Shown here piece after piece: positions 7,534 through 32,561 of a stretch of 64,000 nucleotides of DNA (the first letter of the stretch is position 1; every line of letters starts with the position of its first letter). The stretch is from Tubiluchus corallicola (Eukaryota; Priapulida; Priapulimorpha; Priapulimorphida; Tubiluchidae). Location: assembly GCA_030141605.1 (NCBI GenBank), contig JAQGDQ010000068.1, positions 669,034 to 733,033 on the forward strand. The letters are read 5' to 3'. The translations under genes and the position numbers were made by a program. The notes beneath the pieces were generated by a model that did no database searches, was not told where the DNA came from, and worked only from the letters and a program-made list of their open reading frames with translations.

Positions 7534-10500
7534 TTACCCTAGCCTACCTTGTAAATTTTCCATTTCTTCTATATTTTGCAGATCTGTGCGAAGTTCATTT
7601 GTAAGTGATGTTAAAGTGTCAACTTGCAACTGAGTCAATTCAATGTCCGTGTTGCGCCTAGCCGACCCTCGCCCAACCACACCAATTTCACTGAGAGTAG
7701 TGTTATGAATCTGCAAACAAAGTTCATTTGTACTTTAGCAATGGTATACTTGGGTAGTAAATATTATAGTCTACATCAATAGCCTATCACCATCCAAGGT
7801 CACTGTTATTGTGATTTTTATTACTACTAATGGCTGCATGAATTCTTGTAATGTCTAAATAGTACTAAAAGGCATCTAAATGGTTTACCACCAAATAATA
7901 AGAATCATATGATCTGTGTCTGACTGCCAATAGGTAGCCTTTTATATTTTTCTGTGTACTTCTTTGAAGATATACAATACATGCATACACTGTGTTTTAT
8001 TGAATAAAACTGCTGGCTAGCAAAACCGCTATGTAGAATTTGATTTGATTTGATTGATATTTGCTTCTGATTTAATAACTGAATTACAGTTAACAATAAA
8101 ATACATTTTAAATCAGGTGGCAATGAAAAACAATGCTGGAAGATTAAAAGACATAATACAACACATTTTTGCTATGAAAGATAGCAAATTGCTACAGGGT
8201 TGCCGCATTTCAGTCAAACAAGCTTAAACCTCTACCGTTTCAATGCAAGCACAGTGTAACACAAGCTTAATTGATATAAACTAGCATTTGCAGCTTACCA
8301 AGACTGTGCGGACAGATAACTCCAATGCCACATCACTATCACTTTGTAATTGTATAGCTCTCAATTGAGAGGTATCAATGCAAATATCTATGTCATTAAC
8401 ATCTCTTGAAATGCGACGCAACAATGCCTGGACTTCTTCGCCGAGGAGAACTGCACGGCTTACAATATTGTTAATCTATAAAAAAGTTAAAAGCACACAT
8501 CGAATGACTAGAGTTTAGAAAACTACTGCTTATAAACAGCAAATTGCACTGTATGCAAAAACCTACATTCCTTAACATTCCAATACATTACTTAATATAT
8601 TTCAGTTTTAATGGACATACGTATCTGCTTTAAAGACCTTTACTATTGAATACATTTTTTGTACACAAAATTTACTTAATCTCTTACTTTGTGTAAATGA
8701 AAATATCATCCTCGATTATTTCAGTTTACTCAGTCCCTAGGTTTGCTTTGTATAAGGACCCACTTAGTCTAAAGAACGTCATCACACACTAATTTTTCCA
8801 TACTGTGCTGCTATTCAATACGGAATAACTTGATCCAGCTTATCAGTTCAGGACTCAAGTGCTATTCCTAGGTTTGTTAGTTTTGAACTATATGTAATAA
8901 GCTATTTTATAGTTTCGTTGTGCGCTCATGCAGTTGCTGCAGATCAACGGTTAAGTGAACCCATGCAACGCATCTTAACTACAAAAGTCACATGATATGT
9001 GGGTAAAAGCAAAGGCGTTTGCTGCATCAGTTCAGTTGCTTTGCGTGGACTTTAGTTAATTATGCATTAGTCTGTACGTAGAGTGATTTACTAGCTGGAT
9101 CTTGCTTGAGAACAAGAAAAAGTGAACTAGGTAAGGTGCTAACTGTTAATATTACAGTTTTGTCTGGTTGTCTGTTATATAGTTCACTTAACCTTTGATC
9201 TTTTCATGATCATCGTCAATCGTCGGAACTGTGAAAAGGCTTATTGCTTATTAGTAGTAGCTTAAAATTTTAAAAATGTTCACATTTAAAATTTGATGAG
9301 TGCAACTGCCAGGATCGTGTATGATTGCCAAATATACAACATTCACAACATTCTTATGTGTTTTCGAGATTTTAAATTTTGAATTTTACCTCAAATGCCT
9401 CAAATTTTTTAATTTTTTTACATACTCTCTAAAATCATAAGCACAAAACTTATAGCCCTTATAAATAAGAAAGACTTCAGCTTCCACCAAAAATGCAAAA
9501 GCTGCAAAGTTGTTTAACTCACGTCATCAACAAAGTTATTTATTTCCATAACTTCTTCTTCGATAATTTCTTTCACATCTTCAACTTTAACGAGAGCTTC
9601 AGCAACAGCATCAATATTGTCCTGAATTTCAGTCACAGACTTCAGAACAAGTTCTGAGGAATCTCTGTAAACAGTAAGCAATGAAAACTGAATTACTGAC
9701 TATGGACGAAAATAAAAGATGAGTTGGAACAACTAGAGTCACAAGTGTTCCGGATGATATCATCATAGATTAAGCTAACAAAAGAAAAGCGCTGCACATC
9801 ATCAGTGTATAAATTAGTAAAGTTGAGTTAAGAGAAATCCCTCTAAAATGGATACAATTATCTATATATGTATAACTGTGTCAAACCATAAATTGCATTT
9901 CGACTCGGCGTGCTACCATAATTAAATTTTAAGAACTTTTTTCAACAAAATTGAAAAAGTGGTAAAGCAAATTAAGTCTAAAACTACAAAACAGGATGTG
10001 CCAATTCGTAAGCAGTGAGTTTCAACAGCTTAAATTATGGTAATCAATTAAATATGTCAAAAGAATACCTCAGTGACACAATAAGTCAAACACATTATGC
10101 AGGACTCAGACAACTAAACGAAATGGTAAGGGTTTGCCATTAAGCATGGAGCTGATTAAATGAAAGTATTGGATGAAACAAAAAAGAAAGAAGGCTTTCC
10201 TTGCTTAAATAGAAGCCAGTATTGTTGTTACTTCAGTAAATAGTTATATAGGAGTCCAGAGATACAGTAAACCTTGCTTGGAGACTATCCCATTAAAATA
10301 AAAAAGTGTCTTCTTTAAACATGTATTTGCTTCAATTGAGTGAATAATAACAGTAAAATATAGCAGATCAAATGATGAACACAAGTAGTTGTATTACATA
10401 CGCAGCTTGTTTTGCAAGCAGCTCTATCTCCTGAGCTTGACCAAGGCTGTCCCGTGAATGTGCTGCCAAATCTCGGATAAGTCTGCTTGACACACTTGTC

Positions 10501-10682
10501 TCCAAGATTCTCTCTGTAACTCTGTTAACACTCTCAAGGTCAGGCAGACTGCTGTCCAGAATAGACTTGGAAAAGTTATCAGATTTTAGGATGAGAAATT
10601 CGGTCTCATTTATAGTGTCCAGCAAAGACTGAGCCCCGAGAATAGCAGTCACAGCATCAGAATGCAGTTCTTCAGCAAAATT
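7534..10682 (-). CDS. Laminin exons 20-23: C-terminal coiled coil and stop
   Basis: Exon 20 (10682-10402), exon 21 (9664-9523), exon 22 (8475-8299) and exon 23 (7710-7534) encode the rest of the coiled coil. There is a single cysteine (IDICIDTSQ). The end ELRTDLQNIEEMENLQ aligns with DIRNLEDIRKTLPSGC, the gamma1 C-terminus, but here GRLG and TAA (7536-7534) follow, so the usual terminal Gly-Cys is missing. A GTAGGC inside codon LQ-G (7547-7542) could be a splice donor leading to another terminal exon. I could not find a convincing one. Confidence 0.85.
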
Positions 10683-13600
10683 CTACAAAAATTAACTGGT
10701 AATGTAATAACATTCTACATTACTATATCTAATAATCTGCTATTACTATAATAATTCTAATATTAATAATAATATTAAATGGTAATCCAATAATTCTACA
10801 TTACTAAGAACCACGATAAGGTATTATCAGTGTATTGCTCAGTTGCATTAAAACAAATAGTGAAATGTAATGAAAATTACACAAAAGTACTGTCACATAC
10901 CTGGAATGAGTCAGCATTAAAAGCAGCAAAGTCAACAGTTTCTTGAGCATTGGTAACATTCACAAATATTTCTTGACTTTTTTCTTCTGCTGCAATAGCC
11001 TCCACTTGCTTTTCAGACAATAGATCGGCTATTTCCATCGAATCTTCCTTAATTCTTTCAACCACAGAAAGGGCATCAGCAATGTCTTGTTTAATAGTTG
11101 GAAGGGCATCAAGGTAATGGAATACAAACTCTTCCATGTTTATCAGTCTTTGTCTCTGCTGCCTATGCAGTTCAACAATTGCAGCACCTTGGTTTCTATG
11201 AGCCTGTTCCAAAGTCAAACGCTTCTGCATAGCAATGTTTACCTCACGAGTTAGTTCATCAACTGATTCACGAAGTGACTGTTGAATTTCGTCAGATTCT
11301 GATGCTTGCCTTATCATGTTTCCAATATTTAAAAAGCTAGTATTTGCTTGAGCATACGACTCATCCAACCTTACAAACTGTCGAATAAGAGTGATATTGA
11401 TATCATGAAACGGAATGGTCTGACCACTTGACAGAATCAGTTCACCATTATATCGACCTGCTGCTACAACTCCAACATTGATTTCTTCTCTTCGACGTTG
11501 AAATTCGACCAACGTGGCTGAATAATTGTTCTGCAATTGAATGAGCTCCTTGTAGCCACGTGCTGTTTTTTGCAAGAGCAAATAAGCTGCATTAGTGTCA
11601 TTGTGAAGTGCTCCTATATCATCCAATTTCTGCAAGGATTCATTAATTGACTTTTCTACAAATTCTAAACTAATGCCAATAAAATTTTGTAGCAAAGTTG
11701 TACTGGCATCATTTAAAGCAGAAAAATCATGTCCCAGTTGTTCTAGTTCCACCACAAAATTATCATAGCACTCACCACACGGCTCGCAATTGGGAAACTC
11801 GCCGAGGTAGATCACGTCAACATATTTGTATGAATCAATTTCAGGGATGCCACAATGATCACAAGTCAGACCAACAATTGACTTAGTCTTACATGGGCAT
11901 TGTCCGCTTGTTTTATTACAATTGACATAAGTTGTGCCATCATCCCTCACTGACGTGGCAGTACCATCAGAATGGCATTGACACCTTTTACAGCCAAACC
12001 GACTCAGATCCCAAAAGCCATTCTCACAAGTATCACAGCGTCTTCCAGCAGCGTGCGTGCGGCAGTTACACTGTCCTGTTAAGACATCACACTCACCCCC
12101 TCCAGGTATGCTACCTAGAGGATCACAATCGCACTTCGTGCACCCAAAGCCCGAACTGTAATTAAAAGAGTTTAAGTCGCACTGATCACAGTATGTACCG
12201 ATGACATTAGGCAAGCACTCACAAGAACCATCGATGTTATTACACTTTCCCGTAGATCCTATAGAGAGGGTGCAGTTACACGGTTGGCAGTCAACAGGAC
12301 TGATGAGGGCATTGCCAAAAAAACCCTCTGCACACACATCACACTCCTTACCTGCTGTATTCTCTCTACAGTTGATGCAAACTCCAGTTGTAGAGTTGCA
12401 AGTATCTGCTCTTCGATTGCAAGCGCACTCACGACACATACCACCATTCTGGAAAGCATCTTCTGGAAAACCGTACCAATCTACAATGCAAAATTCGCAC
12501 CTGGACCCACCATGCCCAAAGCTGCAGTCATCACATACTGGTTCGCTGCCAATCAAAGAACATGTAGATGCAAAGACATTGATATCCATATCCGGAATGC
12601 TTCCAGGACACATACACGGTTTGCAGTCATCGGGTGTGCCACCAGTTGCATCACCATAATAGCCATCAGAACAGACTTCACAAGAATCACCAGCTGTATT
12701 ATGCTCACAAATGCACACCCCCGTTTTTGGGTCACAGGGACTCACTGTGTGATTATTACAGAAACAAGCTGTGCACTCCAAGTACACAGATCCATCAGGC
12801 ACAACTCTTGTAAAGCTAGATGAACACATTTCGCAAGAGTTACCATCATACTCGTCAGGACAAATGCATAACTCAACAGTGTTAACTATCACATTACTCA
12901 TGTCGTCATCAGCTGATGCTAGTTGCAATTCAACAAACCACAAGTCAGTGTGAGAACCAATCAAAGAACTGTACCTTGCTCTGATGCGAATTGCTGTAAT
13001 GTTTGTTAGCACCTCTAAAAACTCTTCCTGTGTCGCTTGTGAAGCACGAGAAGAAAGATTTCCAGAATTCCAAGATACTTCATTTAATCGAACAGTATAG
13101 TTGTGTCGTTGAAAAGGAGGTGGCGTAGGAAGATTTGTAGAAATCATTCGATTTTCTGTTCCCACTATAATGACATCTGCATATCTGGAAGTAAATGTAA
13201 TCTCTCTAGGTGTGGCATCTGGGTCTATTTTGGCAGGGTCTGACTGACTTAGGGCAAACATAAGAACATGGCCATATGCTGAACGTTCGTTACCAAGATA
13301 ATCTGACGGTGCTGTGTAGTACATCTCCTGTGCTGTGTCAGCCACTGTGATTCTGCTCACAAGGCTAAAAATAAAGATATTGGAGATATTAAATAATTAA
13401 ACTTAAGGTTGTTATTTGTTCACATACTATTATTATTAAGTTCAATAAGTTTCTACAATCTATTAGCTGTTTAAAATGCTTCACAAGATTAAAACAGTTT
13501 AATAAGTACTAAAAAGCATTTGAATCGTTACATGTTCTTAACAACTATAAAAAGTACACTTACTGGATGTAAGTTTCACTAATGAAAGGCTCATGAGTTG

Positions 13601-16600
13601 CAATAATGGCATTCCCTTGGTCATCCTCCCCGTTCCATGGCCACATTCCCACATCCACATCTGGAAATCGTTGTTGACTGCGTATGGATGAAAGATACCA
13701 TCCAGCTGCTGATGTACAGTTAGTAGTATGCCCACTACATGCACACTTCAGACACCCCAGCTCTGACCATGGACCAAGACCATAGAAACCTAGGAATAGA
13801 AAAATTTCACAATGCAATAAAATGTAAAAACAGGAAAATTTCAATAGAGGAAATTCACATAACAAAATTATGGAATTAAAAATTCAGAAATGACTAGCAA
13901 CAATCAGCAAATTCACAGGCTCCTTACATCTTATATTTGGCTAAGATTCCAGCAATTTAATTAACGATTTACTTTTTACAACAAAGGAAAACATCCGAAA
14001 ACTATGTTGCATCTTTCTTTAAATGTTTTTAACCATTGGGGAAAAAAACATTTAAAATGAATTGCCCTAAACAAGCTTGAAAATTGAAGCACAACAAAGA
14101 CCTTGTGAAAAAATCAGAAACTTCATTTCACATGGAATATGGGAAGCCAATCCTTAACATTGTCAAAGAATTCCAGCAAATGTGGTGATCAGCAAAACAT
14201 CATAAAATGAACACAAATGAACTTTTTTTCATAAGAAAAACTACAATCCATGGGTAACAATCAGTAATTCATGACTTACATACTTAAAACAATTTATTAC
14301 CTATTTGGTAATTATCGTCAAATTATTACCTATTAGGCAATGATTTATTGTAAGATGTTAATTGCTAGAAAAACAAAGGAAATAGTAAAACGTGAAACTG
14401 TATGCTGAATTAGAACTGTACCTTCATTGCATTGTTCGCACTTACTACCAGTAACCTCCTGTCTACAGTTACACACTCCGGTTTCTTTATCACAAGCCAC
14501 TGCCTGACTACCATCAGGATTACAATCACAAGGAAGGCATCCCTCCTCAGTCAAATTATAATACCTGCAAATATGGCAGTACCTTTTACACAGACTTGCT
14601 AAAATGCGTTACATCAGCACACTTGTTTTCCTCAAGTCACAGTCGTCCAACAATTTGCATAGTTTCGTGTATTTGAGTAATTAAATACTTAGTTACTTCA
14701 TAAAAATAAAGTATTGGGGCCAGAGATTAATAGAAACACTATAAATGTACTTGATCCATGACGAGTAGGTATAATTGATAACAAATGACAAGCACAGAAA
14801 TTGAAAAATGCTCAAAATTTTGTCCAAAAACATGTTCTGTGTCTGCCAATCAAACTTGCTCTTCTATGAGTCTGGTTTATTTAACAGGTAACCAACCCAA
14901 TAGTTTGAAAGTCATCTGAATGTTTTCATATATATATATGACTGTTACCACAACAAGTATTGCAAGCCATCATAATTAGTTCTTTCTGAAAATTTTTATA
15001 ATCGAAAAACACTTACTAATTAGCGTCTAAGGACAACCACTGAATAAATATCAGATATATAATGCAAACGTCTTTCTGACTATCAGCTGAAAATCAGCTT
15101 AGTCTTTTTAATTAGTGTGGCTATCCATTCACTTTCTGAAATGACTGGTAAATCATTGCAAAATCAGAATTCAAATACATAAAAATCAACCACTTACCCA
15201 TCAGAACAGCTATCACATGTTAAACCACTAATTCCTGGTTTGCAAGGACACTGGCCATCATCCTCACAAATGTTGCTCATCGAATAGATATCACTACACA
15301 CACATTCAGTGCAGCCATTACCTGAAAAATATGGAGCTGTCACCACTTACATTTAACTATGTGTTTTTACTGATATGTTCAATTAGCAAGTGCCATATCA
15401 TGCCAATCTGCTAGCTAAATTTGTAAGACAACTACGTATGCATTTGAAAACAAAAAAGATAGCTTTTTTGAAAAAAATTGTGAAGAAATAGCAGTGTAGT
15501 TTTTTTGGCACACCAAAGTAAACCATTTAAATTTATTTACTAAATGCCAATTTAAACAATGGTTAAATTTTCAATGAAAATTATAGTTTTCAATATGTAA
15601 TGACTCCTTTTATAGTTTTTGGCTTTAAAATTTTTTAGATCTACATCCAGTTTATTGTGCATAATATAGAAAACTACCAGTAGACTTTCCATGGAAACCC
15701 TGCTCACACGCGTTACACTGCATTCCTGTCACTTTTTCTTTGCACTCGCAGATGCCCAAATCATCACAAGCAAGATTTATTGCACCGTCAGGGTCACAGT
15801 GGCATGGTGTGCAACCAGATCCAGATGAAAAGCCAAAATAGTTCACCTAAGCACAAAATACTGCAAATACCGGCAAAGTAATAGTCCATTACAACTACAA
15901 TTGCTTTAAACTTTTCGTAGACAATATGCCAATTTCAATAGCTAAATAAAATTACTTTTAAAATTCACTGACTCACTATTATGTACTCATAGTTGTAAAA
16001 AAATCTGTGCACTACAACAACTTTGTACTGTAAGTGTGAATAAATTTAATACAGTATATGCCACACACACATATGCACAAGCTGTTCACTTGCATCACTT
16101 TATTTTTAACAGTTGTTCTATCAAAACATTTACATTGTAATTAAACAGGGTAGTGCTGATTTGCATGGTCAACGTGAATTTACAGAAATCGTCAGATAAA
16201 CGTGCAGGAACAGCAAAAACTTGATCATAAACTGCCAGGTTGCACTTCTTGTGTCCTCCATGTCAGGTGCTGAGATAATGGTTCATCCTTGAACCATCAA
16301 GAAGTATGCAGGAAGAGAAAAAAATTTGAAATTTATTGAAATCAAAAGAGTGCTGCAAGAATGGAGATTTTCCAAAAAAAGCGGTGCATAATGCCTACGG
16401 TTTTAAGTAATTTTTTGCAAATAAAGCAAAATCATACTACATGCTTATCAAAACATTTTTAAAAAAAGACTATTGTGGTAACGCCTATAAAAGAAAACAT
16501 TTTTTGAATAATTGCAAAACACCATCACGCCTACAATAAATAAACAAAAACTGGGACAGTCTGATACATAGCATTTATAAATTCATAAAAACTACAAAAG

Positions 16601-18009: not shown

Positions 18010-18052
<43 letters not shown>

Positions 18053-21000
18053 ATGTATATATACATATACATATACATGCACATATACACACACACACAC
18101 ATATATATTATACTTATTTGTCTGTCTACTGTATACCTATATACATGCACACATGTATATATATTTACCTATTTGCCATTAAATAACTTCTTCCATTTAA
18201 ATGATTATGGTAGAGCTGTATGAAACTTTCAATTAGTAAGACCAATTTCCTCAGAAACGATTCCTGAACTTTTCAGATTTATTACACTACTGGCTATTAC
18301 TTGACGGTAATAAACGATGATTTTTGTTCGATGCTTAAACTTTTTTGCAATGTTTAAGACTAAATAAGTTTTACAGTCAATCAATTATTGTTGTAATCTA
18401 TTCAGAGAATCTTCCTAATCAACAAAAAGTAGACCGATAATTATTTGCAAGCTCTCAATTTAATGGCTTCTATTTTATTCAAACGCTCTTTGGTGATAGC
18501 TGAATGTCAACTGTATACCAAGAAAAGGTCTTATAAGGTTCACAAATGTTGAGAAAAGATCTTGTAAAGTTACAGTAAACTTGCTTTAATATAAAAGACA
18601 GAGAATGAAAACAAAATATTGTCCTGTTTTAGAATTTTCCATAACATCAAAAGTTTCTTGTATACCTTACAGTCACTACAGTCATGTTGAGATACTCCCT
18701 CCTTGCATTCACATTGTCCTCCGTGTGAATCACAATGACTACGACGCACTGTACCAGAAGCCATGCATGAACAAGCTGCAAGAAAAGTCAGGTCACATCA
18801 GCAATGTAATGGGAGAAACATATTACTCAGGAAGATTACAGCAAGAAAGCCTAATACTCGTTTTACAAGTAACACTTTTAATACAGTAAAGCTCTATGCA
18901 CAAACTTATAGAAGCAGTTTTCATGTCACGTTTATAGTATCAAAGCTAAAATAACTCCAGTTAATATCATCAAATAAGTGACTAAATCAGTTTAATAACA
19001 AAAAAACTGATTCATAGCAACATGTTACACCTACAACTGGTATTAATATTAACTTAGAATTCAACACTGTATTCTTAAGATTTATCTAGCACATACGTAT
19101 AGCACCATCGTAAAATTCAGCCATTAATGTAAACTCAATGTCACTGCAGTTCAACTCAGCTCTTGTTTGCAGGTCAACACCGAACGAAGCCTCTCGACAT
19201 GCAGCATAGTCATTTTTTAGCTCAGTACTTGAGTTTACAAATGCTGCTAGTTCTTCAATAACGGGTATCAACACTAACTGTAAACATATAAAGTACACTA
19301 AATTAATTCTAACATACAAATTTTCCTTACACAATTCATTTTTCGCTTTAAGGATGTGGATTAAGCTAGTGCAGGCCAGAAGCATATAAAGGGACCCAAA
19401 ACAACAAAAAAACACAGATTTCTCATGTCCACATCCACTCTCAAAGGCACTAGCTAACAAAAAATAAATGCAAAATGCAGCAGGTACAAAATATAGATAT
19501 ATTGGTAAGATAAGCTAAGGGCTACAGCCTAAAATAGTAGGTTATAGTGACCTTATATAACAAATCTGTAAATTCAAAACATGTATCTAATAATAAGATA
19601 ACTGATTTTACTGTAAGGTAATTTTGAATGGAACAGAATTCGAGTCTCACGACAATAAAACCATCAGATATGATATATATTACTAGATAAGTGCTATTAC
19701 ATAGTAACAAAAGTAAATTTTATCTAAGAAAAACGCACCAGTCATAAGCTCAGTAAGCACCGTGCAATCTTAGCATTTTTGCGGTCAACTTACAAGAGTA
19801 TTTCATAAATCGGTGCATGCTGCATGCACAATGTGGAGTGTGAAAGCCTACTAAAACGCAGTGTTTAGACCCGTTCTTAAGATTAGAAGACAAAGATATT
19901 TTGTTACTGGAATGATGAATAATTAGAGATGCAGTTCCCAATGCATAAACATTAAAATTGTTGATTTCATCAGACAGCTTGCGAGCAATTAGTGAAGGCC
20001 CTCAAAGGAACATGCTACTTTCGCTGTAATATTAATGCAGTACTGTTTACGTTCATGTTTGAAAGATCAGTTAAAATGAACAAAGCACCTCTAGGGCATT
20101 TTTACTAAACTAAGATGCAATGACCTAGCAGCTACTCTCCAAGATAAGAGTTTTGTATATCACAAGAGGGACAAAACAAGGAATTGAATTTTTTCCAAAT
20201 GTTTTCTTCAACACAAAATAGGTAGATGGACAGTACATAGGTAAATAGATATTACAGATAGCTAGGTAGACAGACAGACAGACACGCACGCATATGCATA
20301 CAAAAGGCCATTTACAAAACAGAATTCCAGATATGGTCCTTAAGATGCAAAAAGATGGTTTGCCATGCAGTGGATTCAAAACTGTCTTCTCGTAGGGAGA
20401 GCTCTTTAACCTTGGTCAACAATTCACTCAATGATGGCATGGCAATATGTGGTAGCATAAAGTATAATCCAAATTGCAAGACCCGCCAGAGTGGTCGCTT
20501 TTCTTCTGCTTGAGATTAATATGTTAATTTAGCAATATAGATTAAACAAGAAAAGATACGAAAAACAATGGCAGATTAAGACTTAAAAAAGTAAAAAAAA
20601 TTGCAGTACTTACAGAGTCAACTTTTAGCATATCACTTCCAGTACTTACAGCTACAGCTGCCATGAAGTCAGTGTCTCCATTAACACAAGCTCTGCCAAA
20701 ATTCTGGCTAACTGTGTACACAGGAAAAAAATAAGGTTAAAAACTGAAGAACTTTCGTATCTGGTATTAGCACTAATAACCAACTACAGCCGGCTAAGAT
20801 AGATCATGTACTTTATGCTTGAAAGTTTTTTTCAGTGGCTTCACTTTTCTTTCAAATTTTATTTTACCTTTCAATTTAGTTTTGAGTATTTCCGAGCTTC
20901 TTAATTAACAATGTATATATCACGGGTTTTGAAAAGTGATGCACTAATAAATTAAAACCAAAATTTGGAAAGCATTAACGTTTGTATCGTTTTTTTACAG

Positions 21001-23211
21001 CATTTCGTTTACTGTTTCTCATTTTCCATCGACGCTTTTTGGAACTTTTGGATTTTTTCTGTTAAAAGCTTTTAAAAATTGTTGATTACAACCTGTCAGC
21101 CTTTTCGAAAACAAGAGATTCCTTGAAAACCAAATAAACTCTATGCAAGTAACTTAATAGAATGCTCATAAAAGACGTGATAGCTCTCATGTCATACAAC
21201 TATTATTTCACAAATAAGAATAGCTAATTCATGCCAGACACTTCTGAGCTTGTACAATTTTAGTTATACACTGTCTCTGCTATTGGTATAACATCCCGCA
21301 GTTGGAGTGGCCGTTATTTTTTTATTAAGGAAATCATTACAGTACCACATAAGTATATGCATGCTTGCATAGCATAATCGTCCATAAGTCGGCAATTAAG
21401 CTTTCCTAGTTATTCACATATCCTGAATCTCCATTTCATGAGGATCATTTTGATACCAAGCTCATCGCACTATGTTACTTGTAAGCTGAGATAATCTACG
21501 TTGAAGTTGAGGTAAACACTACGCACTAAAAAACATAATCTTGAGAAAAGCGCTGTTAGGGTTCGCCATTGTTTTTATCACGTTTCCACAAAACACTTAG
21601 CAACTGTACGAAAGTGTGGTTGCTAAGGACTTTACAAGAGCAAATTGGAGTTATGTTTAAATCCAGTAGAAGGCTCTTCCTGACCAACATCTGGTCTTGT
21701 CAACAGAAAAAACCCAAAGCAAAATGGCTGCTTCCACGAGCTACAATCAGAGTTAGAAAATACAAGTTTTTTTACTATTATAGGACCAGTTTCCAGACAT
21801 AAAAGTGGGTAAGGAATTATAAAATTAGATTTTTAGTATTTTTTGGACATTTTCCTGATAATTTGATGCTAGAATATAAAAGCCCAATGTATTTAGTATT
21901 TGTTTTCATAAAAAATCGACATTTGACAAAAATTTTGGTGCTTTCTACTTTGAAGCATCATAACATAGTTTTAACTATGCCGACTTATGGACGGCTTTGG
22001 TTTGCAAGCACACATATAGAGCACATATACGGTGTACAGTATAAGCTTTGTTCATTACCGTTGTAACAACTGCCCCCATACATTTTACATAATAATTTGC
22101 TACTGTCACAGTAAGCTAGAAAAATGAATTAGGTATTGATTAGACAATTTTGATATGTCTTAGACGCTTTGTGTAAACAGATAACTCTAATTTTCAATGT
22201 TCACCCATTCAGTAACTTGCACATTAAAAAATTAATTTTAGATCTGCAGAATCTGTTTAGGCAAAATTTTGCTTTTCTTTAGGTGATTTTTACTTAGGTA
22301 TTACATCCACATTGTGAAACTCTTGTAAGAATTTAGTAAAACTGCAGAAGAAAGTTAAAAATTTTACAGTATTGTGTTATATACCAGAAGAAGGCTGAAG
22401 TGTCTGTGGTCCTACAATAATTGGAGAATCATAAGCTGTTTCAGCACAAAAATAAGTCTGTTCAAATTTAGGCTGTAATGTCACTAGCACATTTCTCCAT
22501 ATAGATGCTGCCTAAAACAAAAAGCTGAAATTCAATTGTAGTTCAAGACTTGATACTTGCTGCTTCAATAGTTTTGCTAGACATGTTAAACGATAATTGT
22601 AATTTTTGTTGTTTAAACAACAATAGATGACAAGTTTTGTAATTGTGAAAACACAATGCGGAATCCATTTGACTGCATTGTCCATAACCAGAAGAAAAGA
22701 AGCAAAGTATTTAGCATGAACATACGTTATAATGTAACTTGAGGACAAAAGTTTATGGCAACGTTAGTTTTTGGACAATAATACTAATAAGTAATAACAT
22801 TTGGTAAATTAAACTCTTTAGGGCCAACTATGTGTACTACACTGCTAAGACTGAAATGAAGGCAAAACAGCACCATTCAAATAAAGGGCAAAACTAAACA
22901 ATCAATACTTGATAAAATAAAGATAAATTTAGAATTGGTGTTTTTATACTGCTGATTCAACACATTTTAATAATTCCGAGGTTGCGATTGTATGCCTCAA
23001 TTCCAACAAAATCACTACTCCCCAAAAATCAATTATAAACCCAGTTTTCTCGATTTAAGAACTTAGTATATCCCTGTCTGACAGATGTGTGTCTGAATTT
23101 GTTCCAGATTCGAATTTCATTCACCACAAGAACAAGCCACGCATATGATTGCGGCATTTACCGGCTATGATTTTTGCTTGCGAAACTTATGATAATGATA
23201 GCAGTGTTATG

Positions 23212-23249
<38 letters not shown>

Positions 23250-26200
23250 CTTTAATAACAAAGTGGAGAAGTACATATATCTCCACTTTGTTAAAGACAT
23301 CATATGCATGACTAATGTGCTGGCACACTAAGATACCTAAATACCTATGATCTGTCATTGCTAATGTCTGTTGTAATTCTAACACAGTTAACTAACCACT
23401 GAATGACATCACAAACATTTTAAGCACAAATGGCTGGCTGCTTTCTTGACTAGTTGGGAGGATAATGGCCACAAATGCACCGATAATCAGCAAAACTAAA
23501 AATGGTTGTCCACAGACATTTATTCTGTATATCATGCTTACTTCATATCTTATAACAACTTCATACTCTGCAGCTTCAGCTCTGGGCACTTGAAACTCTA
23601 TTGTAAATTCTGAGTTGGCAAGAACATTAAGAAATCCTCGTCCAGTAAATGTGGAATTGAGCTCACCATGGCCTGGTCTTTCCTCAATTAATGCATCCTA
23701 AATTATATAAACTGAAACCATTAAAACACACGCATAAACTACACGTAAAACATATATACTTAGGTAGTAGCTACAACGAAGATGATGTGTCCGTTCATGC
23801 AAGTTTATATAGAATAAATCGTTTTATCAATCAGTCAAAGTATACAAACGGAACAAGCAAAAGAAACCAGAATTCTTCCTAGGTACATGCACCGGCCATT
23901 ATCCCTCCAAACAAGGGTGAAAATTGAACATAAGCTCAGTTATGCCCTTGGTATACATGAATGAATGTCACTTAGAAATGGCAAAAGAAGTAGCACTTTC
24001 AAATTTTCGAAGAAAACACACTACCACCAAAAGTAACCCCCAAAAAGGGGAAAGTCAAGAAAATCTTAACGTTATTGTTTTGAGTTTCCCGGTTTATATT
24101 CACTATCAAATCTGACAGTGATCTGATCAGTCATTACGAAGCCTTAGCTGAAATGTGTACAACAACAATGCGAGTAAGCACTTGGCACGATTCATACGAC
24201 CGAAGCAATCATTACCTTATTTTGCTAAAGCAGGTTTGTTAACACTTGGTTATAATCAGATAGAAAATGCAGTCCAGATTGAAATTCTACACAGAAATAG
24301 CTTTCAGTAAAAGACTGAAGGCAATGTTTAGTTTATACGCTCAATTTGTTATGAAACTTGTATGATTTAGTTATTAAAGGTGCTGATTAAATTATAGTGT
24401 ACCTCGGGAATATCTGTTACAGCTTCTGCTTCGAAGGTCAAAAAATCAAGTTTCGGAACAAAGAATCCAGGAGTGGTTGAATTGCAAGACTGCCCACGAA
24501 TATTTCTCCTACACGGACATCTACCAGATAATGTGTTACATGACGGAGAGGTGGAGCCACCTGCATTGCAATTGCAAGGCTCACAACCATCTGTATTTCT
24601 GACGTCTAAATTAAACGTATTTGGCTAAAAAATAAAATGCTTAGATTAACGCCCAGCTATTCTTAAACAAATCCTAACTATAGGATAAAAAAATAAACAG
24701 CATATGGAGACTCAATTTCTAGGACCTTTTCTGATCCGAACACAATTATACCAATGCCCCACTAAACTACTAAAATTGCACTTGTGTAAAGTTGATTTTA
24801 CAATTGTCACCAAACATTTCAATTGAAAGCAATTATCTTAAAGGTGCCCTAAATTATGAGTTGTCCATCATGATTTCTAGATCTATTAGATCTTAGTACA
24901 AGCATCAAAAATATGTCTGCTGCTTGAAGGTAACTCCTACCTTACATTCACGACATGTCAATCCCATCGTATTTGCTTTGCACTGACATTCACCTGAGGT
25001 TTTATTGCACAGATTGGTGTTATTTAAGGTACCACTAGGATCACACCTGCAAGCTGTGGGACAATAATACAGTTATTACTTTAAAAAGTACTGGCAAAGT
25101 CATGAATATTAATCACAAAAATTACCAGTTAAGAATAATCATGAAAGATTAATAGAAAGTTTAATGTGCCAATGGCTAGTGTTATTTTGAAAAAACTTTA
25201 TTGAAAAAATAAGGAATATTTCACATGAAGGATGCAAGGAAACATAAAGTGCAACATTGATGCAGTAAAAATTAAAAATTCCTGTTCATGATAAACCTTG
25301 CCGCAAATAATTCATTTCAGAATAAAATCATATCTGCAGCAAATACCGGTATATTGTTCTCCGGTGTAAGAAAGCATATTGTGCCTACAGATACATTCAT
25401 TTCCTATCAGGAACAGTGAATTTATCCCATATCTATGCCACGTATGTATATATTTTTAATTATTACAAGCAAAGTCCAATAGTGCTAACAAATATGTTCA
25501 ACAAACATTTTTCAAAAAGTCATTGCTGATAGTCTTCAGATCAGAAATGCCAGCTAACAATTTTTAATTTTCAACGTTAATGTCTAAAATTAAAGCATGC
25601 GGTACGATTAAAAACTTATGACTTTATGCAAAAATTAAACAAGTTTATTACTTTTGTATTTGTTAAAAGTATTAAAAGGGCAAAAAATAATTGAGCAGTT
25701 AAACTTAAATGTAAATTCATTAATGAAATTGATTAAAATGAAATGTCCATTTATTTTTACATCAAACTTTCCCAAAATGCAATTATCCCTTGTACATTGT
25801 ACAGACTTTAAAAAATAAAGAGATACAACATATAAAATTTGAATTTTGGAAAACAAAGATGAGAAGCATAATTTACAAAAGTAAAAAATTACTTAATACA
25901 ACCGAGAATTAGATAAAACCATTCTATATTTATAATTGGTCCCAGTTTCTTTTTGAATATTTAAAGATGGCCCTTACATCATGCTTGTTGTAATGACAGC
26001 TAACTAAGAAAATGTCTTGCACCGGGATTTGGAAGTAAAAGCATAATAAGCAAATTCCATTATCTAACACCTTGGAAAATCATATCATAATCAAGATCTA
26101 ATTGAATATTAAAAACCAGGATATTTTGTAATTAGAATTTTGTGGAGCAAACAAGTATATAGCAACAAGGGCAGTAAATTAAAGAAAGAGTTCAATTTCA

Positions 26201-29200
26201 CAAATTTTACTAGGTGGCAAAACTCTTCATGAGGGTACAGAGAAAAGTGGCTAGCTCACACTCAAGAATACTGCAAGCAACTCTTCAGCAGGAAGGTTGA
26301 TGCGCCTCCTTGGGGTAAAATGAGTCATTCAAAAATACTTTTGTAAGCCTTTTAGTTTCAAATTTTGAAAATGACATAAAACAATTTTGCAGAATTTGAC
26401 AAAAACTTCAAAATGGGAACATATTTTTTCTTACGTTGGCATCCAAATATATTTCCTGACTGTAAATTCCAGAATTCGTCAGCGCATTCATTACATGTTC
26501 GACCAATGACATTGCCCTTACATGGACACTGTCCCGTTGTAACATTACAGGCAAACTGAGAGCCACGAATGCCATCCTCCATACAATTGCAAGCTGCAAA
26601 ATACAAAATTATAACATGAATAAATGCAAGTGTTCTGAACAAACCAACAAGTTATTTAAAACTATTATGAGCTAATAGTCAGAATGTTCAAATAATGGCC
26701 AATTGTTTGCCACTACAGACGTATCAAGCGATGGTAATTATTAAGGTGCAATTATGCTAATGTGAGGCAGCAGAAAATTGCTCCTGTCAAACCCAGCAGT
26801 ACACTCACTGAATCCATAATTCATGCCTTATAAGAAATTACAATAAGCAGGTGAATGGCCAGGTCACAGACCTATGTGATCCAGGCAAATGAAATACATG
26901 AAACAATGTGAAAGGAGACAGAAATTAAAATCTTAAATAATTTAGTAACAAACATTATGTGGGATGTTTCTATATAATAAATAAACAGTAATTATAAATT
27001 GCACATAAGGCAGAAAATTAGTATTACCCAAGACACACAAATAATTGTAGAATTTTATCATTCAAATAAATTTAATAAGAACACAGTAAAAAATATACAG
27101 ATTTATCAATTGGTCTGGAATTGAAAAAGTTGTCAAAAAATACACATTATCAAACTACTGAGACTTTAAAGTACAAAACTTAGCAAACACTTGTTGCAGT
27201 AATTCACAAGTATTTTATCATTCTAATAAATTTAGTAAAAAGAACATAGTAAAAAATACTACAAAATTTAGCAATTACCTGCAGTCTCATTTTCTATAAA
27301 CATATCTTAAAAAAATTTATAGACACACTGATAATAAAGAAGTTATTACTAAGGCAATGTTAATAAATAAATCAGTAAAATGCAATACTCACGAATACAT
27401 CTCTTTGCACAATCATAATCTGCAAATAAAATGAGAGCTCTGTAAGATTGGAGAAACAAATTAAATGCTTTAGCAATTAAGTAAAGTCCTACTTAGTAGT
27501 GGAAAACTCCTTACTAGTGTGGAAAATGAGAGCTTTATGACATCAACCATTACACTGTACAGACTAAAAAAGTACTCTTGACAGAAGTAAAATCAAACTT
27601 AAAACCACCCTGTACGACAGCCACTGGCCTGCAGTGTAGCAGGCTTTTACGCAACAAGTATTTCACAAAAGTCTCCCTTCCTCTTTCTCGTTTCAACCAC
27701 ATTGGTATAAGGCGACTAATTAATGCAGCCTATTTTTCCATCAGGACACGTCAGCCTCATTATGTCGCACATTATGTATTAAAGTTATTGACCACAGAGA
27801 CTGCAATTACAGGTCTCAAACAATTGACAAATTTAATATGAAAAATACTCATTTCAATTTTTCAATTCGGAAACAATTTTGACAACTTTTCTACTCGCTT
27901 AGGCACCTACACCAAACGCAATCACCGAGTTAGACAGCCTGTGCTCAAAACCAGCGAGTGCAAATTTTTTGAAATGACAAGCCATAAATGTTATTTTTTG
28001 TCTCGCAGTTCCCATGCCAATTCTGTCCTGCAGCGATACTAGTCTCACTTAGCTGCACATCTGCACAAAATCTCTTCTTCTCGTTTCTGCCTTTCAGTCT
28101 TGCAAATATGCACACAGGTAAAAACACAGATGAAAATTCGAAACACCAGTTAAATAACATTTAAATAAGTTAGCAAAGTACGAGTTCCTGTGATAAAAAA
28201 TGCAAGTCTCTAGCAAAAGGTGTGCAAATGATAACAGATGGCACTTATCATAATCACTAACTGTACCCAGTAATTATCTCCACAATAATTACATTCAACT
28301 GTCTCAACTGCCATTAAGTGATCTGCATTAGCAGTAGAAAATGATGGGTCAGAATTTATGAAATTCAGAAAGTCCACAGTATGTGCAGCTTCAATTTGCA
28401 AGCAGAATATTGCCGTAACTACATAGAAACTGCTACAGTGAAAAAAATATAGTCATGATCCAAAGAATCCATGAAGTAATGAACGTCCATAGAACAGATC
28501 TTTTCTACTCAAACACGTGGACGATTTTTGTTTACAAATCATTTGTGGCAGTGACTGGCTGTTTGTCAACTGATCACTAATAGGCCAACTAAAAATTTGG
28601 AAAAAAGATCTGCTTGCTGTGAACCTGCTTAAGCTAATTAATTACAAGTGCACCCAAACTTTATGCAACCATTTAAATGCAGTTTTAGTCTGTGCTCAAC
28701 ACACAAACAAAAGTTTTCAAGGACAACAACAAAAACATGTTTAATTTTGCTTACCAAAACAATCAGTTGGTGTGAGGCAACCTAAAAAAATGTATAAGCC
28801 ATTTAAAAACATTATATTTCACAGGGTCAGAGCATTAGGGAAAAGACAGAAAACACTTTAAATATTCGAGGGTCATAATAAAATATCAATAAAAATTTTA
28901 CAATTAGTTGGAAAAAGAAAAATCATTTGTTTGAAAGCTGTTGTCTATGGGTACTGATAATCAAGGCACATTTTATCTTACCATTACAAGTCTCCCTCCC
29001 TGGAACGAGTACATCATATTCTGGATTGACAAAGTATCGTAATAAGCAGATCTCGCAATAATCGCCAGCTGTTTCTTCCCGACAATCTTGACATACCCCA
29101 TGAGTTTTTGCTTCACTATAAATGCACTCATCAGAGAAACCTCGACAGTTGCAATCTAAAATTGAACATATAGAGCAAACAGCTTAAAACTAATCAAAGA

Positions 29201-32200
29201 CTTATTAGCCCTTAATCTTCTAGGAACAACATATATAACACTTTATCTAGAAATGAAAACGTAATTTGTAACAAATTTCAACGTGTTTTAGTTCTGGTAG
29301 CAAGGACCTACCACCACTACTTGTCTCACAGGTACTAACTCAACTGACAATTACATGGCCATACCTCGTATTTTAATGGACAAGGTTTCCTTCATATGTT
29401 CTACTACATGGCTTAACCATGCTAATGGAGAGGCTTAAAATATTGTTAGCAAGGAGTTCCAAGACCAGTGAGACCACTATTGAAATCCCATGTTTCTTGT
29501 GACTATATTTCTTGAATACCTTTTTTAGATCAGCAAAGTGCTAAATTCATTTCAAAAAACTATCATATAAGCAGGTCCTAAAAGTAAGCATTCTACCCAC
29601 TGCACAAGCTCACTAGTCAGTACTTTTACTACAAAAGTATCTGTAATATAAAGGTACTCTACTTAACCTACAAAGAGCAAATAGATCTAATTCAAGATTA
29701 ATCAAAATTCATTCCAACAGCACATTCTTGTCAAACAAAATCATAATCAGCTAAATGATAATTTCATGCAGTCTCAGCCAAAAAAACAGGATTGTTCCGA
29801 CATTTTGGTAAGTTTGATTAAAATACATGAAAATAAAATCTGATTTTAAGTCTAAAACTAAATTCTTAAATAATATGCTATAGCATACACAACAGATATA
29901 AAACCCATATTCGGAAAATAGCAATAAAAACCTATACCTAAAAAATAGCAATGGTGTATACACGACAATTATCGTCAGTCGTATATGTGTAATGTAAAAC
30001 ATAAAAAGACAACATTTTAGTATAAATAACCAAAAAGTATACAGGATTACAGTAATTATCAATGTTTAACTTTATACCTTGGCACTCATGAGCATTCTGT
30101 GTGGTTGCAATCATCCAGGGATGATCATTAAACAGTGGCAAACATTCCTCGCAATGAATACCTTGAGTATTATGCTCACACGTACATTCTGCCAAATTCT
30201 GCACAAAATATATCATTTTTAACGCACTAGTATCATGCCTCCACCCCCACCCTCATCTATATAAACAGCGAAAGCCATAACAAGTGTTTTCCAGTCAATT
30301 TTAAAGCTTATTATGAAGAAAAAAATAGCACAGCAGAAGCATTATATAAAACAGAAAAATTGAAGCTTTCTGCTAGTGTAATTCAGGACTCCTGGCAGTT
30401 GTGTATATAAAGCTTTTCTAGCATCTATTAATAACATTTGTTTTGAAGCAGGCTGATCGACTTCTGCTTTTTTTACTCAAACTGTCTTAAAAGAACGTAT
30501 AATCAGTATCTGCAATTAAATCTAAATCTAAAAAAGTCATACAAATTTAATAAATGTCCACACAAAACATATATTGTATCCACAGTAAGAGTCTTCACTA
30601 CCAAAATTGTTAACTGATGAACATGTACTTATCGTGATCTGTGTTTGATTGATCAATGCTAAAAACACAAGCATTTTTAACTTTTCTCATACATTTTAGT
30701 GCATTTAATCAGCTATTTTATTTTTATTCTCTGACCACAATGTTTCAAGCATTGATAAACCACTGTACAAACCAGCTTCATTGACAAGTGATTAGCTTCA
30801 TCTTACAGCACTTACAGCAGTAATTTTCAAATTGGTCTTTTTCCAAATAAACTGACGATAATGGTTGGAAAAAATGGAACAGGTTTGTTCCAATTAAGTT
30901 AACAAGGGAAATAGCATAATTGCAAAAGCAATGAATATTTACGAAAATGTACAAGGCAACGTGTGGTGGGTACAATGCCACCATTCTTCCAAGCCTACCT
31001 CTCCGGAACATTCTCCCGCATGACCAAAGCAGTTACAAGCACCCAACACCTGCATATCGGCTACAGCATAGTAAGATCTCAATGGACTCAGGTCAGCCGG
31101 ACGAATGAGACGTATTCGCAGTCCAGTCATAAGGAGACTTCGGTATAAACGTGGATTCGATTTAATCTCCTCCCCAAAATCAGCTGCAGGGTTATAGATA
31201 ACCTACAACAATATTGAACATATATAGTATCAAAAATGCTGTAACTAACTCGATTTATTAGATCTGTAATTATACTTATCAATAACAAAGCTTTACATAT
31301 CACACATAGCAACAGCAATTTCTTTTGTTTTGTTTTTCTTCATGTTAAGATATATTAACATAAATACATTTCCTTTTGAAAGAAATATCTTTTATGTGCA
31401 ATGAAACTGCAATTTTTCGAAATGCTGAGTGATGAAATCTTGACACAAATCAATGAAATGTCTTGTTGAAAAAACTTGTACCACTCAATTAAAATAAAAA
31501 TTTAAAAGGAAATGGCCAAAGAGTGATTTAAATTACAATGTCTTATGTTCACAAATGTAACCTACCCAAGAACGGCAAATAAACTACAATATTGCGTGAA
31601 AACTGTGAAGAGACAACGAGAAAAGAGAATTCCAAGAAAAATTAAGTTTGCATATAAAAATTGAAGTTGTACATCTTCATAAATAGATTTTTAAAATGAC
31701 AATGGATACTGATAATGGCAATAACGGTAGCATCAGCTACAGTAGCAGCAACTACATAAATAAAACCAGTATAAAAGGACAGTTAAAGTTGTGGCCACAC
31801 ACCTGTTGAAGAAATCCCTGTCGTTGAGTTAAAAGATGCTCACTATAATATCGTTCTGCGCACACAACAACAAGTGGATTAGCAACAGTCCCTTCTCTTG
31901 CAACTTGTGGAAAATATCGGCGGCAGTTTTGCGCATAATAACGTAATGGCAACCATTGCCCGGACATCTGTTTCTCGATCACCAAAGCAATAGGGCGGGC
32001 ATCCACAACTGACACGTTGGATGCTTGGTCATATCCAGGTGCAATAAATGTAATTTGAACGTAAGCTACAAAAAACTCATCACCTAACGTCAACTGTAGC
32101 ACTTGTTCACTCGGACGAAATTGATTTCCAACGACTGTGTTCTGCGATTGCCAATATGTGTCCAATGCAGGATTACTTATTGGAATATTACTGGATACTC

Positions 32201-32561
32201 TGTCATAAATAAATGCAGCCTCTCTTTCTAAAGGCTGACACATGAACTTAACCGGGTCTATGCTCAGTTGTAGTTGATATTCGGTAGCATCGGGATCACC
32301 GCATGTTGAGGTAACACTGAATTCTCGAGCTGAGAAAGTCCTCAAGTTTTCTAGCAGGTCCACAAATGGCGGAAAACAACTCGTCCGGTTCGTGCAAAAT
32401 TGAGCTGAAGTTTTATCGACCAGAAATGCAATGAAAATAAAAGCTGATAAGTAGGCAGTCATTTCACCATTCGGAAGCATTTTCTTCAGCGATACATGCA
32501 TAGTATAGCAGCAGCTGCACACAATTTTAGCAATTCCTTTTCTTTCCTTAACCAGCATCAT
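7534..32561 (-). CDS. Laminin chain with both beta-type (LF) and gamma/alpha-type (L4) domain IV, 23 exons
   Basis: This is a secreted basement-membrane chain predicted to trimerise through its C-terminal coiled coil. Exons (minus strand): 32561-31803, 31202-30999, 30198-30078, 29155-28982, 28781-28755, 27420-27394, 26593-26435, 25053-24941, 24624-24403, 23697-23542, 22511-22385, 20711-20614, 19277-19097, 18775-18666, 15846-15678, 15321-15198, 14564-14422, 13789-13564, 13364-10901, 10682-10402, 9664-9523, 8475-8299, 7710-7534. They sum to 6381 nt and stay in phase from ATG to TAA, with GT-AG at all 22 introns. Domain order (approximate residues): signal peptide 34-53, LN 54-306, LE modules 309-579, LF/IV-B 580-788, LE 790-985, L4/IV-A 990-1212, about seven LE to 1590, then coiled coil to 2126. 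Human beta1 and gamma1 chains are shorter, roughly 1.6-1.8 thousand residues. The start could instead be Met28 (32480) or Met34 (32462), just ahead of the signal peptide. The N-terminal two-thirds is beta-like and the L4-onward part gamma-like. The exon model rests on manual splicing, not on RNA evidence. Confidence 0.9.
10901..13364 (-). CDS. Laminin exon 19 (2464 nt): rest of L4, seven LE modules, first half of coiled coil
   Basis: This single exon encodes about 821 residues. The L4 part shows YYTAPSDYLGNERSAYG, like YFIAPAKFLGKQVLSYG of gamma1. It continues with HNYTVRLNEVSW, ITAIRIRARY and VELCICPDEYDGNSCEMC, which all match the gamma1 L4 core and exit. LE modules follow (GVCICEHNTAGDSC, CMCPG, CACNRRADTC, CNCTLS, CDCDPLG, CQCHSDG). 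The short arm ends NCEPCGECYDNF, then a Leu/Glu/Gln-rich heptad region begins. The LE loop that in gamma1 carries the nidogen-binding NIDPNAV reads RRADTCN here, so that motif is absent. No cysteine-rich beta knob is visible in the coiled coil. Many plus-strand open frames across this exon are antisense shadows. Confidence 0.95.
13564..13789 (-). CDS. Laminin exon 18: split LE and start of laminin IV type A (L4) domain
   Basis: The exon encodes GFYGLGPWSELGC, then CACSGHTTNCTSAAGW and LSSIRSQQRF. The GH..xCTSA.G pattern followed by an S-I-S-like strand is the entry into an L4 domain as in gamma1 (YGHSSVCTSAVG). It enters in phase 1 and leaves in phase 2, joining exon 19 as TYI-H-LVSRITVA. This is the junction where a beta-type short arm acquires a gamma/alpha-type module. 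Confidence 0.88.
14422..18775 (-). CDS. Laminin exons 14-17: LE modules between the two domain IV types
   Basis: Exon 14 (18775-18666) encodes CSCMASG and GGQCECKEGVSQHDC. Exon 15 (15846-15678) encodes NYFGFSSGSGCTPCHCDPDG. Exon 16 (15321-15198) encodes GCTECVCSD and QCPCKPGISGLTC. Exon 17 (14564-14422) encodes CLPCDCNPDGS and GVCNCRQEVTG. Phases are 1-0, 0-1, 1-2 and 2-1. In a normal beta chain these modules would run on to the coiled coil; here they lead into an L4 domain. Intron 14 (15847-18665) carries the LTR-like repeat pair and the TA/CA microsatellite. Confidence 0.9.
16136..17702. mobile_element. Degenerate LTR-like element in laminin intron 14
   Basis: Two diverged direct repeats of about 175-186 bp bound this block: 16136-16310 and 17517-17702. 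They share CACGTGAATTTxCAGAAA, GTCAGATAAAC, AGAACAGCAAAAA-like stretches and CTTGTGTCCTCCAT. The right copy starts TGTAACG and ends TTACA, TG..CA-type ends. Next to its left end, on the minus strand, TGGTGGTCAGTATGGG could be a primer-binding site. A perfect tRNA B-box-like GGTTCGAGACC lies nearby on the plus strand. The 1.2-kb interior has no recognisable gag or pol; an open frame at 16624-16989 (-) resembles nothing I know. A small LTR element (TRIM-like) in minus orientation is the best reading. Two independent SINE-like insertions are the alternative. Confidence 0.45.
17968..18160. repeat. (TA)n/(TG)n/(CA)n microsatellite in laminin intron 14
   Basis: Imperfect alternating purine-pyrimidine DNA: GTATATGTG repeats, an uninterrupted TA run around 18016-18049, then ATACATATACA and a CACACACA run. 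Tyr/Ile-rich open frames on both strands are products of the repeat. Confidence 0.97.
19097..24624 (-). CDS. Laminin exons 9-13: last short-arm LE module and laminin IV type B (LF) domain
   Basis: Exon 9 (24624-24403) carries CEPCNCN, RCPCRRNIRGQSC and then TPGFFVPKLDFLTFEAEA, the typical entry into the beta-chain LF domain. Exon 10 (23697-23542) has FTGRGFLNV and EYEVVIRYE, equivalent to the WTGRGFVRVP and YDILIRYEP stretches of beta1. Exons 11 (22511-22385) and 12 (20711-20614) carry the middle of the domain. Exon 13 (19277-19097) continues DS|LVLIPVIEEL, matching IDSLVLMPYC of beta1, and ends before the next LE. An LF domain is diagnostic of laminin beta chains. Intron 10 holds a TA/TG repeat and a 14-bp hairpin. 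Confidence 0.9.
23212..23249. repeat. (TA)n(TG)n microsatellite in laminin intron 10
   Basis: An uninterrupted TA run passes into TG repeats. It is followed at once by a 14-bp inverted repeat, reported separately. Confidence 0.95.
23256..23293. repeat. 14-bp perfect inverted repeat (hairpin)
   Basis: TAACAAAGTGGAGA (23256-23269) pairs with TCTCCACTTTGTTA (23280-23293) across a 10-base loop. The match extends outward with a three-base bulge. It lies inside laminin intron 10 beside the TA/TG repeat. It may be a remnant of a palindromic element or a product of repeat instability. Confidence 0.8.
24941..26593 (-). CDS. Laminin exons 7-8: LE modules 3-4
   Basis: Exon 7 (26593-26435) encodes CNCMEDGIRGSQFACN, then TTGQCPCKGNVIGRTCNEC and EFWNLQ. 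Exon 8 (25053-24941) encodes CRCDPSGTLNN and SGECQCKANTMGLTCREC. These are canonical eight-cysteine LE modules of the beta-chain short arm. Exon 7 is phase 1-1; exon 8 ends in phase 0. Confidence 0.92.
27394..27420 (-). CDS. Laminin microexon 6 (27 nt)
   Basis: This is a second nine-codon phase 1-1 exon, encoding DYDCAKRCI, between a TTTGCAG acceptor and a GTGAGT donor. Joined to exon 7 it gives RCIPCNC, the usual cysteine spacing into the next LE module, which supports its inclusion. Being symmetric, it can be skipped without a frameshift. Confidence 0.75.
28755..28781 (-). CDS. Laminin microexon 5 (27 nt)
   Basis: This nine-codon phase 1-1 exon encodes GCLTPTDCF. It is bounded by a strong T-rich TTTTTTTAG acceptor and a GTAAGC donor. 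It extends the inter-module loop after LE2 and adds two cysteines. It is too short for an open-frame search. The main support is that exons 4 and 7 need no frame change and that strong sites flank it. Confidence 0.75.
28982..30198 (-). CDS. Laminin exons 3-4: LE modules 1-2
   Basis: Exon 3 (30198-30078) completes the first laminin EGF-like module with CTCEHNTQGIHCEECLPLF and a FNDHPW motif. Exon 4 (29155-28982) gives the second module, starting DCNCRGFSDEC and continuing GVCQDCREETAGDYCEIC. That pattern matches the GVCDDCQHNTMGRNCEQC module of vertebrate beta1. The exons join in phase 1. Acceptors are TGCAG and TTTAG; donors are GTATAA and GTAAGA. Confidence 0.9.
30999..32561 (-). CDS. Laminin exons 1-2: signal peptide, LN domain, start of first LE module
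   Basis: Exon 1 (32561-31803) and exon 2 (31202-30999) are both phase 0. The hydrophobic segment after Met34 (YLSAFIFIAFLV) ends in a TSA|QF cleavage-like site. The LN domain shows SCFPPF near its start, VTSTCGDP, a RPIALVIEKQ strand and RYYAQNCRRYFP. It ends with LRIRLIRPADLS and SYYAVADMQVLGACNC, which resembles the beta1 chain more than gamma1 at the LN-LE boundary. LN domains mediate laminin polymerisation. Two in-frame ATGs lie upstream of the signal segment, so the true start is uncertain by up to 33 residues. Confidence 0.92.

Follow-up and report, generated by a model that had tools for sequence, protein, structure and literature searches.

The 64,000-nucleotide stretch of DNA analysed here (hereafter the window) carries on its minus strand a predicted gene of 22 exons for a beta/gamma laminin chain, in which LN, LF and L4 domains occur together, and this chain probably takes the beta place of an alpha-beta-gamma trimer, since its coiled coil is nearer to the coils of beta chains than to those of gamma chains. 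Judged from its sequence, the chain belongs to an already known beta/gamma type of laminin, seen in this study in five animal phyla, and what goes beyond the findings that we met in print is the nearness of the coil to beta and the shortened nidogen loop of such chains. Our literature search, which covered mostly papers available free of subscription, found no report on either of these two features, and the accessible portions of PMC11260871, PMC5395295 and PMC12549020 hold nothing on the beta/gamma chain type. Laminin is one of the core polymers that make up basement membranes, and its chains fall into three types in textbook animals. A fourth type, in which both kinds of domain IV are present, has survived in molluscs, annelids, echinoderms, hemichordates and Hydra, as well as in the host of the window, which is likely an ecdysozoan. 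Should this fourth type occupy the beta place, it would represent the form that may have given rise to beta chains, and the diversification of the trimer becomes testable in living animals holding both versions.

The predicted gene runs from position 32480 down to 6085 of the window and encodes 2,119 residues. Exon 1 (31803..32480; residues 1-226) includes the start, by eye a likely signal peptide, and most of LN, and exon 2 (30999..31202; residues 227-294) the end of LN and the start of LE1. Exons 3 (30078..30198), 4 (28982..29155), 5 (26435..26593) and 6 (24941..25053) correspond to LE1, LE2, LE3 and LE4, respectively, and exon 7 (24403..24624) to a truncated LE5 and the start of LF. LF continues through exons 8 (23542..23697), 9 (22385..22511) and 10 (20614..20711; ending in VDS) and finishes in exon 11 (19097..19277), which begins with LVLIP. 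The first LE past LF is encoded by exon 12 (18666..18775), further LE by exons 13 (15678..15846), 14 (15198..15321) and 15 (14422..14564), and the first half of the LE split by L4, together with the start of L4, by exon 16 (13564..13789). Exon 17 (10901..13352) holds most of L4, the following LE, the hinge and the first part of the coil, which extends over exons 18 (10402..10682), 19 (9523..9664), 20 (8299..8475) and 21 (7548..7710) and ends in exon 22 (6085..6224) with the C-terminal cysteine (6097-6099) and the stop codon TGA. The part from L4 to the middle of the coil is thus contained in one exon of 2,452 bases, as against 16 exons for the preceding part; partial intron loss is a possible source of this long exon.

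This gene model is a prediction, guided by homology and built partly by hand. It started from a codon and splice-site chain of 32 exons, from which exons 2, 6, 7, 8, 9, 11, 19, 20, 21, 22 and 32 were removed manually, as they disrupted the LE pattern or were unneeded for phase; two boundaries were shifted, and 21 exons resulted. That version had 546 residues after the hinge and was without the C-terminal cysteine, while 12 of the 13 complete homologs with a readable hinge have 582-586 residues there and Anneissia has 562. A profile of 15 homologous C-termini then located exon 22 (E 3.1e-6; next best 0.79), which joins in phase by GT-AG splicing and restores the C-terminal cysteine. The earlier note on this DNA had missed exon 22, counted 23 exons, did not have the gene on the minus strand, and put the coding end at 7534; the last was rejected, as the stop there falls inside intron 21, the last intron, and exon 22 lies further on. 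Its view of a single in-phase gene stands in the predicted model, whose exons join in phase across 21 GT-AG introns. Five of the motifs that it quoted were found on the minus strand, namely FTGRGF (23632-23649), EYEVVIRYE (23542-23568), YYTAPSDYLG (13292-13321), ITAIRIRARY (12971-13000) and VELCICP (12857-12877); the sixth, DSLVLIP, exists only once exons 10 and 11 are spliced. A misassembly, or two adjacent genes taken as one, could be entertained for an exon model that is predicted and hand-curated, but is highly improbable and was rejected, since the window is without N bases, the GT-AG introns keep the phase, and other species share the domain order.

Elsewhere in the window, open reading frames at 492-1577 (plus strand) resemble SERAC1 by eye. 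Broken frames at 45675-47943 (minus), 56261-57753 (minus) and 60908-61901 (plus) look by eye like Ty3-like reverse transcriptase and integrase. Near-identical protein frames at 58732-59659 (plus) and 63009-63935 (minus), about 4 kb apart, form an inverted pair of one element.

The domain order in the predicted chain is LN, LE, LF, LE, L4, LE and coiled coil. The Pfam models named in the earlier note were all found: LAMININ_IV_B (PF21199), i.e., LF, at residues 543-708 (E 2.9e-11), Laminin_B (PF00052), i.e., L4, at residues 1013-1151 (E 1.2e-20), LE, and Laminin_N, which was not listed on the whole protein and appeared when the N-terminal piece was scanned alone (E 8.2e-23). With PF21199 and our own profile, LF spans residues 539-744 in exons 7-11 (19098..24459, minus strand); with PF00052, the whole-genome search and our own profile, L4 spans residues 978-1151 in exons 16-17 (12905..13637, minus strand). 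The presence of LF and L4 in one chain, as first noticed, is therefore borne out by Pfam and by the in-phase predicted exons. The LE5 ahead of LF has six cysteines, and L4 interrupts an LE past the third cysteine of that LE, the same layout as described for canonical LF and L4 in the accessible part of PMC5338690; across laminins generally the role of both domains is unknown, according to the portion available of PMC6744579. No LG domain was matched by Pfam in the predicted chain, whether the whole protein or pieces were scanned. Against solved structures, the LN-LE2 region matched the gamma1 tip with E 2.3e-37 and the beta1 tip with E 4.8e-31.

A protein search with residues 280-1550 as query, against 5.8 billion proteins, scored 7,978 candidates and gave 512 matches, the best 120 of which were listed. 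The LN-LF-L4 order is shared by at least 17 proteins, which are the first 17 among the 120 matches listed; going by species names, we take them to come from annelids (2), molluscs (6), hemichordates (2), echinoderms (6) and Hydra (1). Identity to the window chain over residues 280-1550 is 38-41% for P0001-P0015 (coverage 99-100%), 34% for Hydra (P0016; over 100%) and 39% for Amphiura (over 67%). Ten of the 17 are recorded under alpha, beta or gamma names, two under worm gene names and five under none. Fahey and Degnan (2012) reportedly described an additional type of chain that Amphimedon, Nematostella and a sea urchin have retained. Once the profile filters were switched off, P0029 became the eighteenth protein with both LF and L4. 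As controls, LF was found in none of 121 gamma rows and L4 in none of 6 beta rows; the LF region, used as a protein query, had 14 matches, four of them beta chains. One record, P0020 (Danionella), is a beta entry of 3,491 residues in which LN and LF each occur two times, probably through the prediction of a pair of beta genes as a single one. The premise of separate chains for LF and L4 in bilaterians does not hold, as 16 bilaterian proteins have the same order as the window chain; alpha3 and alpha5 chains also counter it, their first insert being weakly homologous to LF and their second being L4 (PMC5338690, part seen).

Separate trees of the LN, LF and L4 regions, as the earlier note had proposed, placed the window chain within the clade of the other members each time (supports quoted from our trees are starred in the output unless otherwise said). 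In the LN tree, the window grouped with annelids and molluscs (97/93) and formed with 16 bilaterian homologs, including 8 deuterostome members, a larger group (98/96), with alpha, beta and gamma rows apart. In the L4 tree, 18 members and P0029 formed one clade (96/93), located on the gamma side of the branch to alpha (99/95), and in the LF tree the members separated from beta with 100/100. The full-length tree, made by a quick method with one support value, recovered the deuterostomes (99) and the window with annelids and molluscs (96), the window lying outside the annelid-mollusc group (95). The placements of Hydra, P0029, P0040 and the full-length window are less sure because of long branches, and sponge beta/gamma sequences were not among the tree rows. 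The best LN tree joins the beta/gamma type with beta (97/94); grouping with gamma (p-AU 0.107) or with alpha (p-AU 0.141) was not rejected. These trees fit a descent predating the cnidarian-bilaterian split and not a fusion in the host line. A recent fusion or exon shuffling in the host lineage, one of the two origins offered in the earlier note, would account for the domain mix, and nothing else was found in its favour; with at least 17 homologs in the same order and concordant trees against it, such an event is exceedingly unlikely and was rejected.

The host genome, 343.5 Mb across 2,344 contigs, additionally encodes beta (C2320), gamma (C177) and alpha (C2138) chains, all known from rough, partial models. 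Among the matches listed, the host gamma protein is closest to that of Limulus (54% identity), with no near match, and in a tree made by a quick method it splits off ahead of arthropods, a nematode and a tardigrade at 94, a value not starred. By these sequences the host is a bilaterian, likely a non-arthropod ecdysozoan and perhaps a priapulid or a related animal; COX1 was looked for in the assembly and did not turn up. The sponge origin suggested at first was rejected on the placement of the host gamma and on the full-length tree, where the window joins annelids and molluscs. C2138 was considered as a second beta/gamma gene and rejected because of LG domains and alpha-chain matches. Its alpha stretch scored equally on C1787, C2138 and C2264, two of which are nearly the same size (1,053,064 and 1,053,078), and these copies are probably duplicate contigs in the assembly. 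At C2138:364241-368443 (plus strand), one intronless frame of 1,401 codons encodes LE, an LF-like insert, LE, L4 and LE of the alpha chain.

The place in the trimer was judged mainly from the coil. In profile-profile comparison, the coils of 14 members (P0006, P0012 and P0017 being outside the test) aligned with beta, represented by only 4 coils, over 562 columns (E 3.9e-24, score 194), and with gamma (12 rows) over 136 columns (score 76); for the controls, beta against gamma scored 95 and reversed profiles 23-34, and the alpha control was one sequence. Single coil sequences scored higher with the beta than with the gamma profile in all 14 members tested, window included, by margins from 1.6 (Elysia; 51 vs 49) to 48 (Lottia); the window's own margin was modest (56 vs 36), and Hydra, outside these 14, had 43.9 vs 33.7. 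All four beta rows scored the beta/gamma type above gamma, and among the 12 gamma rows 8 scored beta above the beta/gamma type and 4 the reverse. With plain HMMs, beta exceeded gamma in 13 of the 14 members, P0014 preferring gamma, and the window coil was below zero for both (beta -0.8, gamma -11.9). The separation was good in the first 120 columns (89 beta vs 41 gamma) and small in the last 150 residues (38 vs 31). By these comparisons the coil of beta/gamma chains is closer to beta than to gamma.

The hinge cysteines at the start of the coil, CEPCGEC, lie at 11768..11788 (minus strand), and the terminal cysteine, second to fourth from the end in all 13 complete homologs, is fourth from the end in the window chain, which ends in CQTP. 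The parts seen of PMC5343747 and PMC6744579 describe a terminal disulfide between beta1 and gamma1 and a gamma1 tail with an integrin-binding glutamate; this tail, with Glu third from the end (PMC5343747), is missing from the window chain. On sequence grounds, a hinge of the form C..CGEC and a cysteine second to fourth from the end, without the gamma tail, are beta-like. The beta-loop cysteines, present in all four beta coils read, are missing from the window coil. An extra coil cysteine occurs 126-129 residues from the end in all 13 homologs read and at that place in none of 4 beta and 10 gamma rows; in the window chain it is Cys 1992 (8380..8382, minus strand), 128 from the C-terminus.

Alternatively, the chain could replace gamma and pair with alpha and beta, LF having been added. 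L4 groups with gamma against alpha (99/95), the LE tract between L4 and hinge scores higher with gamma (554) than with beta (467), the best solved match of LN-LE2 is gamma1, and an LN grouping with gamma was not rejected by the p-AU given above. However, L4 cannot tell beta from gamma because the 6 beta rows are without L4, and the coil of all 14 members tested, the beta-like hinge and terminal cysteine and the missing gamma tail speak against a gamma place, which we regard as unlikely.

The nidogen loop was also compared. The LE position homologous to the nidogen-binding LE of gamma (12398..12427, minus strand) has a six-residue loop, NRRADT, and six residues were found there in all 16 bilaterian beta/gamma members read, window included (the truncated Amphiura sequence, unreadable at the loop, being outside the 16); the Hydra member has an eleven-residue loop. 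A D/E-x-N-x-V/I loop, the looser pattern, was present in 115 of 118 gamma proteins and the strict pattern N-I/V-D-P in 60 of 118, and the host's own gamma chain has NDNIDPNAVGN. The nidogen-binding residues of the gamma loop are D-x-N-x-V, and a change of Asn-836 weakened and did not abolish binding (PMC4227867, part seen), so that loss of high-affinity nidogen binding in the beta/gamma chains is given as a prediction.

As a beta-place chain, the protein would be secreted and contribute its LN domain to the laminin polymer node, and its coil would pair with one alpha and one gamma chain, the terminal cysteine forming a bond to gamma as it does in beta1. No high-affinity nidogen site of its own would be present; nidogen would bind via the partner gamma chain, which retains the loop in the host genome. 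With a beta gene present in the host too, the beta/gamma trimer would add a second isoform of laminin.

Regarding origin, we tentatively favour, at somewhat less than even chance, an arm with LF and L4 that was ancestral to beta and gamma: the beta/gamma type would be a beta lineage that kept L4, canonical beta would have lost L4 and gained the beta-loop, and gamma would have lost LF. The other alternative of the earlier note, a survivor of an ancestral chain, fits the data better than its lineage-specific fusion. Traces of middle steps may be seen in two chains. P0040 (Bolinopsis), a ctenophore chain, has a gamma LN (100/96), a gamma coil (292 vs 56), an L4 whose position in the L4 tree was unresolved, and a weak LF (profile-profile 8.4e-6, vs 0.13 for the gamma control; single-profile 0.0026 with filters off). 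This LF was absent from the Pfam listing and from the profile search with default filters, and the assignment therefore draws on the profile-profile value and on flanking LE seen by eye. The second, P0021, which we take to be from Sycon by the style of its name, has a gamma-like coil (96 vs 26), an LF (profile-profile 4.8e-12; single-profile 1.9e-6 with filters off, not reported with default filters), no L4 match in Pfam or with the filters-off profile and, by eye, an LE with an L4-type split closed over by a short scar. The LF of P0029 was likewise found with filters off (single-profile 2.8e-12) and not reported with default filters; in Pfam, LF was below the cut-off for P0029 (2.8e-4) and P0021 (0.0082) and was not listed for Hydra P0016.

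P0040, P0021 and the LF-like insert of alpha3/alpha5 favour an old arm with both domains, and the ancestral-arm reading is held at its tentative level because the LN alternatives were not rejected. A different account, that a beta chain received L4 and nearby LE from gamma by domain shuffling before the cnidarian-bilaterian split, would agree with the mosaic likeness, LF and coil being beta-like and L4 and the following LE gamma-like. It is, however, rather unlikely in our estimation, as the weak LF of P0040, whose coil and LN are both gamma, and the LF of P0021, whose coil is gamma-like, suggest an earlier shared arm, to which the alpha3/alpha5 insert also points (PMC5338690, part seen).

Among known systems, P0001-P0015, P0017 and Hydra P0016 have LN, LF and L4 ordered as in the window chain. 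The chains described as chimeric beta/gamma-like in sponges, two in Oopsacas as in Amphimedon, are like the window chain in that description, by which alone they were compared (PMC10280926, part seen, citing Fahey and Degnan 2012 and Whittaker 2006); a beta chain is absent from Amphimedon and hexactinellids according to the same source, whereas the window chain comes from a bilaterian that also holds beta and gamma genes. Alpha3/alpha5-type chains, such as that of C2138, share an LF-like insert before L4 (profile-profile 3.5e-5; single-profile 0.012) but have LG domains after the coil (by eye and from alpha matches). Canonical gamma chains (C177 of the host; Limulus P0135) are similar in having L4 within a split LE and in the LE tract up to the hinge, and differ in being without LF, in having the nidogen loop and another coil, and in the gamma tail at the C-terminus, of which the C177 model stops short. 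Canonical beta chains (Lingula P0121; C2320 of the host) share an LF preceded by a truncated LE, a C..CGEC hinge and the terminal cysteine, but are without L4 and have a cysteine-rich beta-loop in the coil (read in four beta coils, C2320 not among them).
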